A stretch of 35,594 bases of DNA from the NCBI GenBank assembly GCA_009937625.1, contig JAACFA010000006.1:1-35594 (forward strand), given 5' to 3'. Below the pieces are notes generated by a model, which saw nothing but the letters and a program-made list of their open reading frames with translations, was not told the DNA's origin and searched no databases. Positions 2,690 to 18,152 of this stretch are shown here, piece by piece (within the stretch, counting starts at the first letter, position 1; each line of letters begins with the position of its first letter). Both the position numbers and the translations under genes were made by a program. This DNA is from Gammaproteobacteria bacterium (GTDB taxonomy: Bacteria; Pseudomonadota; Gammaproteobacteria; GCA-001735895).

Positions 2690-5071
2690 GTGTTCGCAGT
2701 TCGCAGCCATAGATTCGCTATTCGTGCCGGTCTGCTATGCCTGGTCGCGAGCCTGCTTTTGCCCGGATTCGCGTGCGCGCAGGCGGATATGTCGATCGGT
2801 GTGCTCGCGTTCCGCGGCAAGCAGGATGCGATAGATCGCTGGTCCCCGACCGCGCGCTACCTCAGCGAGCGCATCGCGGATTACAGCTTCCGTATCGTGC
2901 CGTTGACCCTCGAGGGCATGCTCGACCACGTGGAGCAGGATCGGCTGGATTTCATTCTGACCAATACCGGCAACTATGTCGTGCTCGAAAATGCGTTCGG
3001 CATCTCCCGCCTTGCCACGCTCAAGGTACGGCACCTGGGCGCTGAATTTACGCAGTTCGGGGCCGTCATTTTTACCCGGCAGGACAATACCGAGTTAAAC
3101 GCGCTGGCAGATATTTCCGGATATTCGATGCTGGCGGTTAGCGAAGAAGCCTTCGGCGGTTTCCAGATGGCCTGGCGCGAATTGCTGGAGGCGGGCATCG
3201 ACCCCTTCGAGGATCTGCGGCTAAGCTTCGGAGGATTCCCGCAGGACGATATCGTGCACGCGGTGCTGGCTGGCGAAGTCGATGTCGGCACGGTGCGCAG
3301 CGGCACGCTGGAGCGCATGGCGGCGGATGGTTTGATCGATATCGACCGGATCAAGGTGCTCGGCGCCCGGCAAAGCGATGTGTTTCCATTTTTGCACAGC
3401 ACCCGGCTGTATCCCGAGTGGCCGTTTGCCAAGGGGCGCAGGACGCCCGAAGCGCTGGCACAGCGCGTCGCGGTTGCGCTACTGGAGCTGGAGCCCGATA
3501 GCGAAGCGGCGGTGCGGGCGTTTTCCGCCGGCTGGACCATTCCGCTGGATTACGGGCCGGTGCACGAACTCTTTCGCGAACTCGAGATCGGCCCTTACGC
3601 CTACCTCAGTAAACCCAGCCTGACCTCCGTATGGCGTGAGTACAAGGGCTGGATAATTTTCAGCCTGGCGATGATGTTGCTGCTGATGGTATTGCTGATC
3701 CTGATCAGCCGGGCGAATCGGCGTATCTCGCAATCCGAATTGAAATATCGAGCGGAAGCCAACCAGCGCAGGCAGGCCCAGGAGTTACTCGCGAGGCACA
3801 AGGAGGAACTCGAGGAGCGAGTCGCGGAACGCACTGCCGAACTGGCCGACGTCAACACCTCCCTGCGCCGCAGCGAGGCTACCCTGCGGGCGATACATGA
3901 CATCACCACCAATCCCGAGTTTAGGTTCGAAGACAAGCTTGCGGGCCTGTTGCGCGAGGGTTGCCGTTTTTTCGAAATGGAGTCCGGCGTCATCTTGAGT
4001 ATCGATGGCGAAAACGACGATTTCCTCGCCCGGGTAGACGTTGGCGCCGATGGTGAACCCGTAGATTACCGTCAGTTGGCGCGGCGTTTGCGCAAGCAGA
4101 TTGCGATCAATCATGATCCGGTAGCGGTTGCCGATCTTCAGGGGCACTGTTTTCAGGGAGATAGCGACGTTTGCGAATCGACCGGCTCAGTGCTCGCAGC
4201 CGACTACCTGATTGACGATGAAACCGCCGGTGTCATCCTGTTTGCGAGTAGCCGCGCGAACCCGAGAGAGTTTTCCGACGTCGATATCGATATATTGCAG
4301 TTGATGGCGCAATGGCTGGGTGGAGAAATCGAGAGGGCCGAGATCAATCGGCGGGCGCAGGAGCACCAGGCGCAACTGGCGCACGTGTCTCGTCTCAACA
4401 CCATGGGCGAGATGGCAACCGGCATCGCGCACGAACTCAACCAGCCGCTGACCGCGATACTCAACTACAGTGGCGGCAGTTTGCGCCTGCTGCAGAAACG
4501 GGGTAACGGTGACAGCGAGCTGCGTCAGGCCATCGTCAATATCGGCAACGATGCCCGGCGGGCGGCCGATATCATCAAGGGGCTGCGCGAGTTTATCCAG
4601 CGAGGCGAACACAGGCGCGAGCGCTTCGTGCTCGAAGATTGTATCGAATCCGCGGTCGAACTACTGCGTCCGCGGTTGCTTCAGCACGAAATCGAAGTCG
4701 ACCTGCGGCGCGTCGAGGCAATCCCCGATATCGTTGCGGACCGATTGCAGATCGAGCAGGTTGCCGTCAACCTCCTGATCAACGCGATCGACGCCGTGTG
4801 TGCCGTCGGTCATGGCCCGAAGAAAATCGAAATTGGCATAACCCGCACCGGTGTCGGGGAAGTTGCGGTGAGCGTTAGCGATAGCGGCGACCTGTTATCG
4901 CAGAGCGTGATCGAACACCTGTTCGATCCTTTTTATACGACCAAGTCGGACGGAATGGGAATGGGGCTTTCGATCAGCCGTTCGATTGTCGAATCACACG
5001 GCGGCACCATAGAATACCTGGTTAACGAGGCACAGCATCCGGCCTTCCGTTTTACATTACCGGTGACATGA
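2690..5071 (+). CDS. TtrS-like sensor histidine kinase with PhnD-like periplasmic domain
   Basis: A 793-residue membrane sensor kinase. In order it has a signal peptide (about 1-31), a PhnD/phosphonate-type periplasmic binding domain (about 33-300), one transmembrane helix (about 321-342), a coiled coil (about 345-395), a GAF-like region (about 400-545), a phosphoacceptor domain with His581 in GIAHELNQPLTAI, and an ATPase domain with NLLINAIDAV and FYTTKSDGMGMGLSIS. This is the layout of TtrS, the tetrathionate sensor, and a FixJ/TtrR-type regulator overlaps its stop codon. The start is GTG 2690; an ATG at 2686 is out of frame and stops quickly. The ribosome site is weak. The ligand is unknown, but the downstream DsrE-family gene favours an inorganic or organic sulfur compound. 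No tetrathionate reductase genes are in view. Confidence 0.88.
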   Translation: MFAVRSHRFAIRAGLLCLVASLLLPGFACAQADMSIGVLAFRGKQDAIDRWSPTARYLSERIADYSFRIVPLTLEGMLDHVEQDRLDFILTNTGNYVVLENAFGISRLATLKVRHLGAEFTQFGAVIFTRQDNTELNALADISGYSMLAVSEEAFGGFQMAWRELLEAGIDPFEDLRLSFGGFPQDDIVHAVLAGEVDVGTVRSGTLERMAADGLIDIDRIKVLGARQSDVFPFLHSTRLYPEWPFAKGRRTPEALAQRVAVALLELEPDSEAAVRAFSAGWTIPLDYGPVHELFRELEIGPYAYLSKPSLTSVWREYKGWIIFSLAMMLLLMVLLILISRANRRISQSELKYRAEANQRRQAQELLARHKEELEERVAERTAELADVNTSLRRSEATLRAIHDITTNPEFRFEDKLAGLLREGCRFFEMESGVILSIDGENDDFLARVDVGADGEPVDYRQLARRLRKQIAINHDPVAVADLQGHCFQGDSDVCESTGSVLAADYLIDDETAGVILFASSRANPREFSDVDIDILQLMAQWLGGEIERAEINRRAQEHQAQLAHVSRLNTMGEMATGIAHELNQPLTAILNYSGGSLRLLQKRGNGDSELRQAIVNIGNDARRAADIIKGLREFIQRGEHRRERFVLEDCIESAVELLRPRLLQHEIEVDLRRVEAIPDIVADRLQIEQVAVNLLINAIDAVCAVGHGPKKIEIGITRTGVGEVAVSVSDSGDLLSQSVIEHLFDPFYTTKSDGMGMGLSISRSIVESHGGTIEYLVNEAQHPAFRFTLPVT

Positions 5072-5703
5072 GCGTGACAGACCAGATTATCGAAGCCGGG
5101 CAAACGGTATTTGTCGTCGATGACGATTTATCGGCGCGCGAATCCCTGTGCTGGTTGCTCAATACCGAAGATATCGCTTCACGGGCTTTCGCTTCGGCAG
5201 AATCCTTCCTCGATCACTGGAATCCCGATTTGACCGGATGTATAACGGTAGACATCCGTATGCCGGGGAAAAGCGGTTTGCAGTTGCAGGAAGAACTCAA
5301 TGCCCGACATAACCTGATGCCGGTGATCGTGTTGACCGGCCATGCCGATGTTCCCGTCGCAATCAGGGCCATGAAGCTCGGGGCTTATGATTTTCTCGAG
5401 AAGCCTTATTCGGACGACGAACTGCTGGCCTGCGTCAAAAACGCGCTAGCGCTGAGTCGGGAAATCGATCACGCCGAAATCGAAATAAGCCGACTGGCGC
5501 GCGCGTTGGAAAACCTCACCGACCGCGAGCGCGAAGTCATGTGCCTGGTAGTGGAAGGCAATACCAACAAGGCGATTGGTGTTCAGCTCGGGATCTCGGA
5601 AAAGACGGTGGAAATTCACCGTGCCAGGGTTATGGAAAAGACCGCGGCCAGGTCGCTTTCCGAACTTGTTCGTATCTGTCTGATACTGAAAGATAAAATT
5701 TGA
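5068..5703 (+). CDS. TtrR/FixJ-type response regulator (receiver + LuxR HTH)
   Basis: A 211-residue cytoplasmic response regulator. The receiver has the acidic pocket at residues 18-20, phosphoacceptor Asp62 (TVDIRMPG), Thr90 in LTGHAD and Lys112 in LEKPYS. The C-terminal LuxR-type helix-turn-helix lies around residues 150-205 (LTDREREVMCLVVEGNTNKA and GISEKTVEIHRARVMEK). ATG overlaps the kinase stop codon (ATGA), so the two are translationally coupled and form one sensor-regulator pair. A near-consensus promoter begins six bases after its stop, in front of the DsrE-family gene, which is a likely target by proximity. Confidence 0.93.
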   Translation: MSVTDQIIEAGQTVFVVDDDLSARESLCWLLNTEDIASRAFASAESFLDHWNPDLTGCITVDIRMPGKSGLQLQEELNARHNLMPVIVLTGHADVPVAIRAMKLGAYDFLEKPYSDDELLACVKNALALSREIDHAEIEISRLARALENLTDREREVMCLVVEGNTNKAIGVQLGISEKTVEIHRARVMEKTAARSLSELVRICLILKDKI

Positions 5704-5791: not shown

Positions 5792-6274
5792 ATGAAAACG
5801 TTTACAAAACTGGTTATTACTACTTTGCTCTTGTCCAGTTTCATGGTCGCCGGGCAGGTAACTGCCGGCGATTACGGCAAGCAGAAAGTGGTTTACCATA
5901 TCAACTACGATAACCCAAAGGCGCAGGCGGGCGCCTTGCGCAACATCCAGAATCATATCAACGCAGTCGGTGCCGAAAACCTCGATCTCAAGGTGGTGCT
6001 GCACGGCAACGGCCTGGCTATGTTGCTGGAGCCCGAGTCCTTGCCCAACTTGAAGAAATTTAAGCATGCGAATGCGGATGAAAAGATGACTGCCAAAGTA
6101 TCCGACCTGAAGGGCCAGGGCGTTTCATTCCACGTTTGCAACAACACGGTTAAAGGCCGCAAGGTAGACATCGAATCCGATCTTTATGATGTCTCCAAGG
6201 AAGATATCGTGCCCAGTGGTGTCGCCGAAGTCGCCAAGCTGCAGGCCATGGGTTATGCGTATATCAAGCCCTAG
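5792..6274 (+). CDS. Secreted DsrE-family protein
   Basis: A 160-residue protein with a Sec signal peptide (MKTFTKLVITTLLLSSFMVA, cleavage near residue 25) and a DsrE/DsrF-like fold. Recognisable features are KVVYHINYDNPK, VVLHGNGLAMLL, the single conserved Cys116 in FHVCNNTVKGR, and the C-terminal DIVPSGVAEVAKLQAMGYAY. DsrE-type proteins carry persulfide sulfur on a conserved cysteine; this exported group is less well characterised. The start has a strong GAGGAGG ribosome site. Its own strong promoter and a strong terminator bracket it as a single-gene transcript behind the TtrS/TtrR-like pair. A periplasmic sulfur-handling role is inferred from the family and neighbours. Confidence 0.9.
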   Translation: MKTFTKLVITTLLLSSFMVAGQVTAGDYGKQKVVYHINYDNPKAQAGALRNIQNHINAVGAENLDLKVVLHGNGLAMLLEPESLPNLKKFKHANADEKMTAKVSDLKGQGVSFHVCNNTVKGRKVDIESDLYDVSKEDIVPSGVAEVAKLQAMGYAYIKP

Positions 6275-9320: not shown

Positions 9321-10025
9321 ATGACAAGAATCGCCTTAATCGTTGGCGTGGGTAGCGGCAACAGCGCCGCCTTTGCACGAGCACTGGCAGCCGAAAACTA
9401 CAAGGTCGTACTCGCGGCACGCAACATCGCCAAGCTCGAGGCCCTGTGTGCCGAGATCGACGCGCACGCCATCAGCTGTGACGCAACATCCGCCGAATCG
9501 GTGGCAAGCTTGTTCGAATCGATGCAGCAGGATGTCGGCACCGCCGAGGTCGTGCTCTATAACCCGAGCGCCTATACCGCGGGATCTATTACCAACCTGG
9601 ATCCAGAGCTGGTGCTGGATTCGATTATGCAGACCGCCTTCGGCGCGTTCCTGGTGGCCCAGCAGGCGGCGCTTGGCATGAAACAACTCGGGCGCGGCGC
9701 GATTTTCTTCACCGGCGCCACCGCGAGCGTCAAGGGATTTCCGAATTTCGCGCCGTTTGCGATGGGTAAGTTCGCGCTGCGCGGATTGGCACAAAGCCTT
9801 GCGCGCGAGCTCGGGCCCGAGAATATCCATGTCGCGCATTTCATCATCGATGGCGGTATCGCCTCACCCGGCCGTGATCTCGACAGTGACGATGCCAGCA
9901 CCAATCCCGACGACGCCCAGCTCGAGCCCGATGCGATCGCGCAAACCTACATGGCAATACTTAAGCAGCATCGCAGCGCGTGGACGCATGAAATTGACCT
10001 GCGGCCCTGGGTAGAGAATTTTTAA
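9321..10025 (+). CDS. Short-chain dehydrogenase/reductase-family protein lacking the catalytic Tyr
   Basis: A 234-residue Rossmann-fold protein of the classical SDR superfamily. The dinucleotide-binding turn is GVGSGNSAAFARAL at residues 9-22, and the NAG-like motif reads LYNPSAYT. The active-site segment reads FAPFAMGKFALRGLAQSLAR. The Lys is present, but the Tyr four residues before it is Phe, so ordinary SDR redox chemistry is doubtful. Relatives with Phe at this site exist as a conserved subgroup, so this is not simple decay. It is preceded by GGGGAAAG and its TAA overlaps the next ATG by one base, which couples it to the ureidoglycolate-lyase-like gene. The function is unknown. Confidence 0.85.
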   Translation: MTRIALIVGVGSGNSAAFARALAAENYKVVLAARNIAKLEALCAEIDAHAISCDATSAESVASLFESMQQDVGTAEVVLYNPSAYTAGSITNLDPELVLDSIMQTAFGAFLVAQQAALGMKQLGRGAIFFTGATASVKGFPNFAPFAMGKFALRGLAQSLARELGPENIHVAHFIIDGGIASPGRDLDSDDASTNPDDAQLEPDAIAQTYMAILKQHRSAWTHEIDLRPWVENF

Positions 10026-10681
10026 TGGCGCAACCCATCGATTATTTATCCCCCGATGTGCCCGCGCAGCTACCCTGGCATGACGTGCCGCTGGTGGTTG
10101 CGACCGAGGAGACGGTCGACGGTTACGGCTGCCTGGTAGACGATCCTGATAATTTCGAAATCGAGATCGTGCAATGGCCGGCCCAGGGCTGGCGTCCGGT
10201 GGACGCCGGTACCGGCGACGAGGGCGGCGTGGTCGAGGGCGTGTTCCACAGCGAGTGGCGGGGCGAGGTGCTGCACGGCAACAACGACGCGGTCAACGGT
10301 AGCTACATACTCGGCTGGTCGACCAATCCCGGTAGCGCCGATGGCAACGTTTCGATGGAGCATCCGCAGCGCGTGTTGCTGTGGCATTTGAATTATCATC
10401 CGGACGGCGGGCAGCTTTTCTACCCGCTCGACAAGCAGCCTTTCGTGGTGCCGCTCGCCCTGCCGGGCGACGACCTCAGGCTCGACCAGATTATCTCGTT
10501 CTGGTGCGATGGTAGCCGGGGACTGTATATCCATCCCGGGATCTGGCACGAGGGCGTGTTTCCGGCAACCCGCGCGCAGTCTTTCAGCGATCGCCAGGGC
10601 AGGGTCCACGCGCGCGTCAGCTGTAACGTCGCGCAGGAATTCGGGGTGTTTCTTAACGTGCCGCTGCAGGCTGGCGATTAG
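10025..10681 (+). CDS. Ureidoglycolate-lyase-like cupin-fold protein
   Basis: A 218-residue cytoplasmic protein whose C-terminal half matches the ureidoglycolate lyase (AllA) pattern: a long beta-rich stretch (LNYHPDGGQLFYPLDKQPF, then VVPLALPGDDLRLDQII) followed by GLYIHPGIWHEGVFP, where AllA has its WHHPLF-type motif. AllA splits ureidoglycolate into glyoxylate and urea in purine breakdown. No other purine-catabolism gene is nearby, and the N-terminal half is diverged, so the true substrate may differ. The start overlaps the SDR stop (TAATG), which suggests that the pair work together. It converges on the thioesterase gene. Confidence 0.75.
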   Translation: MAQPIDYLSPDVPAQLPWHDVPLVVATEETVDGYGCLVDDPDNFEIEIVQWPAQGWRPVDAGTGDEGGVVEGVFHSEWRGEVLHGNNDAVNGSYILGWSTNPGSADGNVSMEHPQRVLLWHLNYHPDGGQLFYPLDKQPFVVPLALPGDDLRLDQIISFWCDGSRGLYIHPGIWHEGVFPATRAQSFSDRQGRVHARVSCNVAQEFGVFLNVPLQAGD

Positions 10682-14904: not shown

Positions 14905-15762
14905 ATGGCTAGACTGCAATTACCCGACTCGCTGGTCAGTGTTGACTGGTTAAAGCAACATCTCGACCACGAAGACCTCATCATTCTCGACTCGAGCTGG
15001 CATATGCCGGCTACCGGCCGCGACGCCTTCAAGGAATGGCAGCAGGAACATATTCGCGGGGCGCGGTTTTTCGATTTCGACGGCAAAATCAGCGATCCCG
15101 ATTCGGAACTGCCCCACATGATGCCGAGCGAAGAGATATTCACCCGCGAAATGCAGGCCCTGGGATTGAACCAGGACAGCGTAGTGGTGGTTTACGACGC
15201 GATGGGCATGTTTTCCAGCCCGCGCGGCTGGTGGATGCTGCGCGCCATGGGCTGCGAAAACTGCGCGCTACTCGACGGCGGGCTGGTGGCCTGGGACGAG
15301 GCAGAGTACCCGATCGAAAGTCTGTCGCGGGAACCGGCTTATACGCCCGGTAATTTCGTCGCCAAATTGGATCCGGACTACGTTGCCGACGCGCAGGATG
15401 TGCTGGCGGCGCTGGATGACGATAAAGTATGCGTCATCGACGCGCGTCCCGAACCCCGCTTCAGCGGCGCAGTGGAAGAGCCGCGCCCTGAACTGCGGCG
15501 CGGGCATATGCCGGGCGCGCTGAACTTGCCGTTCCCGGATATGTTCAAGCACGGATTACTGAAACCGAAGCAGGAACTCAGGGAAATGATCGAGCCGTTG
15601 ATAGGAGACTGCGAGCGCAGCATCCACAGCTGCGGCTCGGGCGTGACCGCCTGCGTGACCGCGTTTGCGGCTTACCATATCGGTTATCGCGGGCTTTCGA
15701 TTTACGATGGCTCCTGGTGCGAGTGGGGCAAGCCCGGTGAACTGCCGGTAGTGACCGACTAA
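14905..15762 (+). CDS. sseA: 3-mercaptopyruvate/thiosulfate sulfurtransferase (tandem rhodanese)
   Basis: A 285-residue protein of two rhodanese domains. The N-terminal domain is inactive (VVVYDAMGMFSSPRGWWML). The C-terminal domain carries catalytic Cys243 in the loop CGSGVTAC, the sequence typical of mercaptopyruvate sulfurtransferase (SseA). It transfers sulfur to cyanide, thiols or other acceptors through a cysteine persulfide in the cytoplasm. It converges on the HAD phosphatase gene, and the two stop codons overlap. Thiosulfate as an alternative donor cannot be excluded by sequence. Confidence 0.92.
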   Translation: MARLQLPDSLVSVDWLKQHLDHEDLIILDSSWHMPATGRDAFKEWQQEHIRGARFFDFDGKISDPDSELPHMMPSEEIFTREMQALGLNQDSVVVVYDAMGMFSSPRGWWMLRAMGCENCALLDGGLVAWDEAEYPIESLSREPAYTPGNFVAKLDPDYVADAQDVLAALDDDKVCVIDARPEPRFSGAVEEPRPELRRGHMPGALNLPFPDMFKHGLLKPKQELREMIEPLIGDCERSIHSCGSGVTACVTAFAAYHIGYRGLSIYDGSWCEWGKPGELPVVTD

Positions 15763-16457
15763 AGCGCCGCGGGTAGCGCCGTGATATCGTCGAAAACAAT
15801 ATCGGCGATGTCTTCGAGATCGCCGCGGGTACTGGTGCCGGTCAATACGCCAACGCAAAGGCCAGCGCCTGCATTACGGCCCATTTCGATATCGTGGCGA
15901 TTATCGCCGACCACGACCACGCTCTCCGCTGCAAGGCCAGTCTGTTCGCAGAATGCCAGCACCATGCCGGCCTCGGGTTTGACGCCGTGCCCACTGTCGT
16001 AGCCCGCCAGGAAATCGAACTGCTGCAAAACGTCGAAGGCTTGCAGGGTATTGACGATACCCTGGTGGCTGTCGGCGGTGGCGACGCCGAGCTTATGCCC
16101 GGCCTGCTTCAACTGTGCGAGCGTGTCGGCCAGCCCGGCAACCGCGGTTGCATGTATCGAACCCTGCTCGTTGAATATCTGGTTGAGGCGCTTGCTGATC
16201 GCGTCGACGTGGTCATGCCTGCCGATCTGGGACGCCCAGGCCCGGGCAATTTGCCGATTGTTGCCGGCCGCTAGCAGGCTGCCGCCGATAAATCGAGACC
16301 GCGCCGGGGCGAAACCGTGCTCGGAAAGCAACTTCCCGGCCAGCCGTTCGTCGCCCTCGGCAAATTCGAGTGCCGCGTGCAGGTAGATCGGCAGCCAGGT
16401 TTTGTTGAAGTCGAGCAGGGTGCCGTCCTTGTCGAAAACAATACCCCGGTATTTCAT
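15759..16457 (-). CDS. HAD-superfamily phosphatase (phosphoglycolate-phosphatase-like)
   Basis: A 232-residue HAD hydrolase. Motif I is VFDKDGTLLDF with the nucleophile and acid Asp pair, motif II lies in GVATADSH, the Lys in HGVKPEAGM, and motif IV is VVGDNRHDIEMGRNAGA. A helical cap lies between motifs I and II, as in phosphoglycolate phosphatases (Gph). It lacks the motif of phosphonoacetaldehyde hydrolase (PhnX). ATG overlaps the stop of the upstream oxygenase gene by one base (TAATG), so it is translationally coupled to the phosphonate-type operon. A role in clearing a phosphorylated side product is possible but unproven. Confidence 0.88.
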   Translation of the reverse strand: MKYRGIVFDKDGTLLDFNKTWLPIYLHAALEFAEGDERLAGKLLSEHGFAPARSRFIGGSLLAAGNNRQIARAWASQIGRHDHVDAISKRLNQIFNEQGSIHATAVAGLADTLAQLKQAGHKLGVATADSHQGIVNTLQAFDVLQQFDFLAGYDSGHGVKPEAGMVLAFCEQTGLAAESVVVVGDNRHDIEMGRNAGAGLCVGVLTGTSTRGDLEDIADIVFDDITALPAAL

Positions 16458-17581
16458 TAGCCGCTCTCGAGTATCCGCAGGCTGCTGTAAAGGCCGTCAA
16501 GGTCGCTATAGGCGCCCTGCAGGTGGCGGCTGCCGCTCGCCAAGTAAGCCTTGCGCGCGTGCAACACCCGCGTGTTGTCGAACAGCAACAATTCACCGGG
16601 CTGCAGTTTGAACACCACCTGCAGTTCTGCGCGTTCCAGGATTTCGGCGTAGTGCCGGTAAGCCGAGTAGAATTGTTGGATCTGATCGGGCGCCAGCATG
16701 ATGGTGTCGATCGAGCGATTGTTAAAGCGCACCTTGATGACTTCGTTGCGATCGTTAACCTCGATTAAGGGAACGCGGGACTGCAGATCGGCGCTGTCGT
16801 CGCGGAAGCGAAAGTTGATCCAGTTATGACTCAGGGTGGCAAAGTGCCCGGGATTTTCCTGGCGCAATATCGTGGCTGCCATGAATCCGTCCTGCAGGAT
16901 CGATTCGCCACCCTCGGTGGAAGACTCCAGGCAATGCAGTAACTGCAATCCGGGTACCGGGTCACGATAGGGATTATCCAGGTGACATCCGAGCCCGAGG
17001 TTGGTATAGGCGAGATTGTTGGGGTCGACCCTGGTGCGCACCTCGAACAGCGGTCCGTAATTGGTTTCGCGCACGAAGCCAAATGTTTCGATCACCTTTA
17101 GTATCTGGCCCGGTTCACAGGGCACCGAATCGAGCAGCACGAAACCATAGTCCCGCACCGCCTGCAGCGCGGCGAGCTTGCTGCGGGCTTGCTCGCAATA
17201 ATTCGGGTAGGCATGGCGCGGCAGCGTCTCGCTGAAGGAGTCGCTGCGCCACAGGAGCTTGCTGGTCTCGCTGCGGTCGTCATATTGGCGATTGAGGCAG
17301 TAACAGTTCCGATACAACCAGTCGGGATCAAATTCCGAGCGGTGGCCGTCCGGGCCGAATTCGACGATCAATTTACCGTCCTCGAGGCTGGCCTTGTCGA
17401 TCGCAATATCGGGTGAAATATCGTTGATATTGAGCAAGCGCTGGCCGTTACCGGGATCGCGGCTGGCGGGCATCTGGCAATGATCTCGCAACCATATGGC
17501 CTGCAGTTCGCTCCTGCCGGCATTCTCCCAGGTGATTGCCAGTTCCCCGGCATCGTAGGATATCTCGCGAATGCGGCTCAT
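16457..17581 (-). CDS. tmpA: TmpA-like Fe(II)/2-oxoglutarate oxygenase (gamma-butyrobetaine hydroxylase family)
   Basis: A 374-residue enzyme of the gamma-butyrobetaine hydroxylase family: an N-terminal DUF971-type domain (WLRDHCQMPASRDPG, about 1-110) and a C-terminal double-stranded beta helix. Iron ligands are His200 and Asp202 (CHLDNPYRDPVPGLQLLHC) and His341 (FDNTRVLHARKAY), with a 2-oxoglutarate-binding Arg near 352. The N-domain keeps only Cys35 of the usual zinc cysteines in that segment. It lies one base after an HD-domain di-iron oxygenase of the PhnZ/TmpB kind. That pairing defines TmpA, which hydroxylates 2-(trimethylamino)ethylphosphonate at C1 next to phosphorus; such proteins were long annotated as gamma-butyrobetaine hydroxylases. 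True gamma-butyrobetaine hydroxylase (carnitine synthesis) is the alternative, but the partner gene argues against it. Confidence 0.82.
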   Translation of the reverse strand: MSRIREISYDAGELAITWENAGRSELQAIWLRDHCQMPASRDPGNGQRLLNINDISPDIAIDKASLEDGKLIVEFGPDGHRSEFDPDWLYRNCYCLNRQYDDRSETSKLLWRSDSFSETLPRHAYPNYCEQARSKLAALQAVRDYGFVLLDSVPCEPGQILKVIETFGFVRETNYGPLFEVRTRVDPNNLAYTNLGLGCHLDNPYRDPVPGLQLLHCLESSTEGGESILQDGFMAATILRQENPGHFATLSHNWINFRFRDDSADLQSRVPLIEVNDRNEVIKVRFNNRSIDTIMLAPDQIQQFYSAYRHYAEILERAELQVVFKLQPGELLLFDNTRVLHARKAYLASGSRHLQGAYSDLDGLYSSLRILESG

Positions 17582-17582
17582 T

Positions 17583-18152
17583 TCACCGTAATAGCTGTGA
17601 CTCGAGTAAGTCCCGGTAGTCGCTAACGGGCTTGATGGTCAGGCCCTTGACCTTGCCATCATCGTCATACAGCCGCAGCCTGACCGCATCCTCGTGATAG
17701 GGCTTGGCTTCGAATGCCTTCACTTCATCGGCGCTCATGGGGCCGCCCTGTACCATCAGCGAATTCACGGAGGCGTCCGACAAACGGCCGAAATATCCGT
17801 CATCGGTCGCGCAAAGATAACGTTTGGCGGCGACATGCAGCCGGATGGGCTCGGTGATTGCGGGCGGATAATATGGCGCGAGGTAGTCCGCGCCCGCTGT
17901 CTCGTGCACATTATCGATGCCGTTTTCGAGCGCCTCGATCGGATGCGCGCCAATAAAATGCCCGATGTCGTGCAACAGGGCCGCGATCACCAGGCTGTCG
18001 GGTGCGTTATCGGCCCGTGCGCAGGCTGCACTTTGTTCCATATGTTGCGACATGCTGACCGCTTCGCCCATATATTCCGCGGCGCCGCGGGTGGCGAACA
18101 ATTCGAGGATGAAGTCGACGATGCTATCGCGTTGCTCACCTGCTGCGCTCAT
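17583..18152 (-). CDS. tmpB: TmpB/PhnZ-like HD-domain mixed-valent di-iron oxygenase
   Basis: A 189-residue HD-domain protein. The expected metal ligands are His37, His61-Asp62 (LLHDIGH), His83, His106 and an Asp near 163. Lys110 in LHVAAKRYLCA matches the phosphonate-binding Lys. Tyr27 and Glu30 (EYMGEAV) match the PhnZ Tyr-x-x-Glu lid, which gates the second iron. Enzymes of this type cleave the carbon-phosphorus bond of 1-hydroxy phosphonates with oxygen. With a TmpA-like partner the expected products are glycine betaine and phosphate. The stop codon lies one base before the tmpA ATG. The start has AGGA seven bases upstream. It is the first gene of the operon. PhnZ proper pairs with a PhnY, which is a different oxygenase type. 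Confidence 0.85.
   Translation of the reverse strand: MSAAGEQRDSIVDFILELFATRGAAEYMGEAVSMSQHMEQSAACARADNAPDSLVIAALLHDIGHFIGAHPIEALENGIDNVHETAGADYLAPYYPPAITEPIRLHVAAKRYLCATDDGYFGRLSDASVNSLMVQGGPMSADEVKAFEAKPYHEDAVRLRLYDDDGKVKGLTIKPVSDYRDLLESQLLR

Follow-up and report, generated by a model that had tools for sequence, protein, structure and literature searches.

The window, i.e. the whole stretch of 35,594 nucleotides analysed here, is a gammaproteobacterial contig that carries three adjacent genes on the minus strand, read in the order HD, oxygenase, HAD:

17583-18152, minus strand: HD-domain gene (TmpB-like), 189 amino acids, Pfam HD.
16457-17581, minus strand: 2-oxoglutarate (2OG) oxygenase gene (TmpA-like), 374 amino acids, Pfam TauD and GBBH-like_N.
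16455-16459, minus strand: TAATG, read from the sequence, in which the stop codon of the oxygenase gene overlaps the start codon of the HAD gene.
15759-16457, minus strand: HAD phosphatase gene, 232 amino acids, Pfam HAD_2.

A single base separates the HD gene from the oxygenase gene, and the latter's stop codon has one base in common with the start of the HAD gene. The coordinates, the 1-bp gap and the 1-base overlap given in an initial annotation of this DNA were all verified. The TAATG overlap suggests translational coupling from the oxygenase to the HAD gene, and we infer from the sequence that the three genes are co-transcribed. Scans for promoters and terminators gave signals no better than chance. 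The arrangement itself is not a chance one, since the best matches of the first two proteins among PDB structures are TmpB (6npa) and TmpA (6npb) and sister genomes of the genus share the layout, the usual gene order there being DUF523, tmpB, tmpA, HAD and a convergent rhodanese gene.

The HD protein is predicted to be a TmpB-like mixed-valent diiron oxygenase. Its best match among solved structures is TmpB (6npa, 8.5e-45), followed by PhnZ (about 2e-27). The metal ligands common to these two enzymes (H37, H61, D62, H83, H106 and D163), the lid Y27-x-x-E30 and K110 are all present, as the initial annotation had listed them; the ligand motif (H...HD...H...H...D) and the YxxE lid of HD oxygenases have been described (PMC8177086). 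Of the HD-oxygenase models, the TmpB equivalog model gives the best score, 214.9, which does not reach its cut-off of 300, so we file the protein as TmpB-like and not as an equivalog. In the HD tree, the proteins of the genus are sister to those of Oceanospirillaceae (support 99). This closest TmpB lineage has a gene for an AraC-type regulator ahead of tmpB and, in one locus (L117), a gene for a PhnD-type binding protein next to tmpA.

The oxygenase gene adjoins the HD diiron oxygenase gene, and its product is well supported by sequence as a TmpA-like enzyme, not a carnitine enzyme. It scores 442.8 bits with the TmpA model NF049936 (cut-off 400), and a sequence search of solved structures returned TmpA (6npb) at 1.7e-96 and gamma-butyrobetaine hydroxylase (BBOX) at 5.7e-60. 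The oxygenases of the genus form one clade (support 99) inside the TmpB-linked proteins, apart from human BBOX and from BBOX-like plasmid proteins. The initial annotation had set grouping with true BBOX against its own reading, and the tree does not place the oxygenase there. That the protein is nevertheless a true gamma-butyrobetaine hydroxylase for carnitine, next to an incidental HD gene, is extremely improbable: it does pass the cut-off of TIGR02409, but narrowly (421.4 for 414.75) and with a score below that of the TmpA model, its position in the tree is wrong for such an enzyme, it has Arg289 and Asn203, and its linkage to an HD oxygenase with a complete ligand set is conserved.

The residues of the active site agree with this assignment. 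The iron ligands form the HxD motif H200-L-D202. TmpA grips the phosphonate through N187, N287 and R288, where human BBOX has just two asparagines (PMC9296572); the aligned residues in the window are N189, N288 and R289, and the protein also has the signature of TmpB-linked oxygenases, N203 and S290. In the numbering of PMC9296572, N187, N201, R288 and S289 occur in 42/42 TmpB-linked oxygenases and in 18/18 proteins of the genus, and N287 in 35/42 and 18/18, respectively. At N187, N201, N286, N287 and R288, human BBOX has N, Y, N, N and A, and two BBOX-like plasmid proteins have N, L, N, N and W. Because some paralogues in the oxygenase family also carry an arginine at position 288, the diagnostic of TmpA is, on the sequences compared, the full residue set and not this arginine alone. 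The initial annotation expected routine annotation to miss a TmpA here, which is outdated: NF049936 calls TmpA above its cut-off, although some plasmid records read gamma-butyrobetaine dioxygenase and the HD protein stays below the cut-off of the TmpB equivalog. We also observed that oxygenase residues 199-203 (window 16973-16987) read C-HLD in 18/18 proteins of the genus, and that nearly all other TmpB-linked oxygenases have HTD.

Taken together, the curated models, the tree, the phosphonate-binding residues, the PhnD neighbour in a sister lineage and the transporters of the same genome make the identity of the pair as TmpA/TmpB well supported. The pair might still be a TmpAB relative whose substrate has shifted, e.g. 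to another N-methylated or a longer aminophosphonate, which we consider unlikely. The TmpA proteins of the genus group with those of SUP05, Marinobacter and others (support 99) in a clade separate from that of the characterised Leisingera TmpA, the sister relation of the two clades being supported at only 77, and show clade-specific changes by the iron (C199, and HLD instead of HTD). Moreover, the two genes have different nearest relatives, Oceanospirillaceae for the HD protein and SUP05/Marinobacter for the oxygenase. Against such a shift, neither the set of phosphonate-binding residues nor the aromatic residues at Y175, Y192 and Y358 have been lost.

We put at about 70% the probability of the following explanation of the whole locus, with its predicted substrates and predicted HAD function. 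Import of 2-(trimethylammonio)ethylphosphonate (phosphonocholine) would be through ABC transporters of the phosphonate family, whose genes lie elsewhere in the genome. The 2OG oxygenase would hydroxylate it at the carbon beside the phosphorus, and the HD diiron oxygenase would split the hydroxylated product into glycine betaine and phosphate. The HAD protein would be a genus resident of the site, most likely a phosphatase that acts in the cytoplasm on a phosphorylated aminoalcohol, e.g. phosphocholine, and the operon as a whole would recover phosphate and betaine from trimethylammonium headgroups. Judging from sequence, the two-enzyme pathway very probably breaks the C-P bond of phosphonocholine, its predicted substrate, to give phosphate and glycine betaine. 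This pathway is already known; its setting is new. We found no phosphonate transporter genes adjacent to the three-gene locus, and uptake had been expected to be encoded elsewhere. Two clusters on other contigs of the same genome agree with this expectation: phnD-phnC-phnE-phnE (L291), in which both permeases score above their cut-off, and phnS2-T2-U2 (L292), which scores 518 bits against a cut-off of 392.75. PhnDCEE and PhnS2T2U2 are candidates for the uptake of phosphonocholine.

Several other loci are worth recording. At 2690-5071 the window encodes a sensor kinase whose periplasmic domain is of the PhnD type; after it come genes for a response regulator (5068-5703) and a DsrE-type protein (5792-6274). 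We considered the kinase as a phosphonate regulator and set this reading aside, as the two genes after it fit the sensing of sulfur compounds better. A ureidoglycolate-lyase-like gene at 10025-10681 of the window resembles one in another locus (L109:7118-13271, G370:C39), where a second HD gene, of the PhnZ family, occurs with phnDCEE-type genes and a PsrA-type Fe-ADH gene. In G190 (L110), tmpAB adjoins genes for an M24 creatinase-type peptidase and a TRAP-type transporter. Plasmid pF045_1 of Pseudomonas aeruginosa (L203:3938-5663) has a gene for a TmpA-like oxygenase below the cut-off, then genes for a divergent HD protein, a choline transporter and a choline dehydrogenase, possibly a further HD-oxygenase pair.

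Among the genomes of the genus that we searched, the HAD gene was found in 26, the HD gene in 24 (in G265, locus L096, as a C-terminal remnant only) and a TmpA of the window type (at least 63% identity) in 18, window included. In one genome (L097, G361:C35), tmpBA has been relocated and adjoins a LysR gene, with a dimethylglycine-dehydrogenase-like (DMGDH-like) gene about 5 kb off. In five genomes (L091-L095, from G395, G379, G387, G383 and G384), one of them that of the Olavius algarvensis Gamma 3 symbiont (L091), an intact HD gene lies directly upstream of the HAD gene, and a search of the whole assembly at E 1e-20 gave no homologue of TmpA. Their dispersed positions in the HD tree suggest that there were several losses. 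The six metal ligands are retained in 5/5 of these HD proteins, and the lid Tyr27 is replaced by His in the Olavius symbiont alone. We rejected a simple decay of the HD gene after the loss of TmpA, since the ratio of HD to HAD divergence is not different (median 1.01 vs 0.92, p = 0.31). Even so, the HD proteins of genomes that lack TmpA more often differ at conserved positions (p = 0.011), and 4/5 of them vs 1/18 have a change at E84 (p = 0.003).

The HAD protein is of the C1-cap type, with D9, D11, T127, K160, D185 and D189 intact (DxD, Thr/Ser, Lys and acidic motif IV). Across 64 relatives, D9, D11, K160, D185 and D189 are found in 64/64, T127 in 86%, and W21 is invariant. The predicted model (mean pLDDT 83.7) folds like phosphoglycolate phosphatases (PGP), and a structure search with it retrieved generic HAD-IA hydrolases, mostly phosphatases. 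Two specific assignments were rejected: the PhnX phosphonatase (TIGR01422 score 43.7, cut-off 220) and the curated PGPs, whose cut-offs lie far above its scores.

The initial annotation had proposed the HAD protein as a third, dedicated enzyme of the TmpAB pathway and had suggested a survey of its conservation with other such pairs. The TAATG overlap and the order tmpB-tmpA-HAD, kept in most genomes of the genus, fit this proposal. However, the gene is core to the genus and separable from tmpBA: G375 and G390 have it but neither HD nor TmpA, and in G361 it keeps its rhodanese neighbour while tmpBA sits on another contig. Outside the genus, no tmpAB locus that the survey examined has it, and the phosphate would already be released by TmpB. 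Presence/absence and synteny thus led us to reject a dedicated role in TmpAB, which now seems very unlikely.

The gene neighbourhoods of the family support a looser claim, that the HAD protein belongs to choline/betaine metabolism. G375, of the same genus, has an operon of MttB-like, DMGDH-like and HAD genes. Elsewhere, the HAD gene adjoins a DMGDH-like gene (G696), closes the series ProX-ProV-ProW-ProW, methyltransferase, choline-kinase-like gene (G202), follows ProXWV (G406) or PhnS2T2U2 (two plasmids), or precedes MttB (Rhodobacteraceae-type genomes). Two ATPases tested beside HAD genes score 568 and 520 for a curated ChoV cut-off of 483.75, and in one locus the downstream gene is above the cut-off of betaine-homocysteine methyltransferase (BHMT). 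Of 45 HAD loci, mostly new and taken from the two orders to which G696 and G406 belong (that of G202 gave G202 alone), about 37 have a same-strand choline-transporter-type (choXWV) ATPase gene no more than 300 bp upstream, in a test made after the choline theme had been seen and on loci that share ancestry. In the HAD tree, 40/84 rows adjoin choXWV-type genes and are spread over several clades. Relatives lying directly behind choXWV-type or PhnS2T2U2 transporters were seen in L294-L338 and in L215, L216, L218 and L261.

With moderate confidence, and with a substrate deduced from gene context, we take the HAD protein to be a phosphocholine-type phosphatase that shares the substrate theme of its neighbours. 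Some contexts count against this: the choline-kinase-like gene in G202 is odd for a phosphocholine phosphatase, the gene lies between waaA and lpxK in Sinorhizobium and relatives (Rhizobiaceae-type genomes), and other relatives have no choline theme around them. It is possible, though on the doubtful side, that the HAD protein is a general housekeeping phosphatase of the phosphoglycolate type which adjoins tmpBA by chance. Its fold, the waaA-lpxK context, its retention in genomes without tmpBA and its pairing with the rhodanese gene would suit such a role; set against it are scores far below the PGP cut-offs and neighbours (choXWV, MttB, DMGDH-like, PhnSTU2) that recur in several lineages. More speculatively, the phosphocholine-type assignment might extend to the family as a whole. 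Its members would be cytoplasmic trimethylammonium-phosphate phosphatases, carried in Alphaproteobacteria behind choXWV choline transporters; a single operon would here serve phosphocholine and phosphonocholine, and the HD proteins that several genomes keep without TmpA might use a hydroxyphosphonate from outside or from another hydroxylase. A literature search for HAD phosphatases in choline gene clusters found none among the papers covered, and the family, apparently without a name, appears to be the new part of a system whose pathway is the known part.

These results extend the use of phosphonocholine to uncultured Gammaproteobacteria of marine sediments and worm symbioses, provide criteria, based on residues and synteny, by which annotation can tell TmpA from carnitine enzymes, and bring to view a widespread HAD family, as yet without a name, that is linked to choline transport.

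Parts of the locus can be compared with known systems. HAD enzymes that act on phosphorylcholine exist: the phosphorylcholine phosphatase PchP of Pseudomonas aeruginosa (PMC3170909), likened here by description, belongs to the HAD superfamily and is choline/betaine-linked like the HAD protein of the window. PchP is exported to the periplasm, whereas the window protein opens with its catalytic motif and has no obvious signal peptide. BBOX shares the fold, the N-terminal domain, the iron ligands and several aromatic positions with the window oxygenase, but the human enzyme has no arginine after the asparagine pair and a tyrosine at the position of Asn203. PhnY/PhnZ, which act on 2-aminoethylphosphonate, follow the same logic of a 2OG hydroxylase and an HD diiron oxygenase with a YxxE lid. 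However, the window HD protein matches PhnZ far less than TmpB (2e-27 vs 8.5e-45), and its partner hydroxylase is of the BBOX/TmpA family. The closest system is TmpA/TmpB of Leisingera caerulea (6npb, 6npa). Compared with it, the window has the order tmpB-tmpA, then HAD, its oxygenase falls in a separate, mostly gammaproteobacterial clade and its HD protein is under the TmpB equivalog cut-off, but the two enzyme families, the catalytic and phosphonate-binding residues and the adjacency of the genes are the same.
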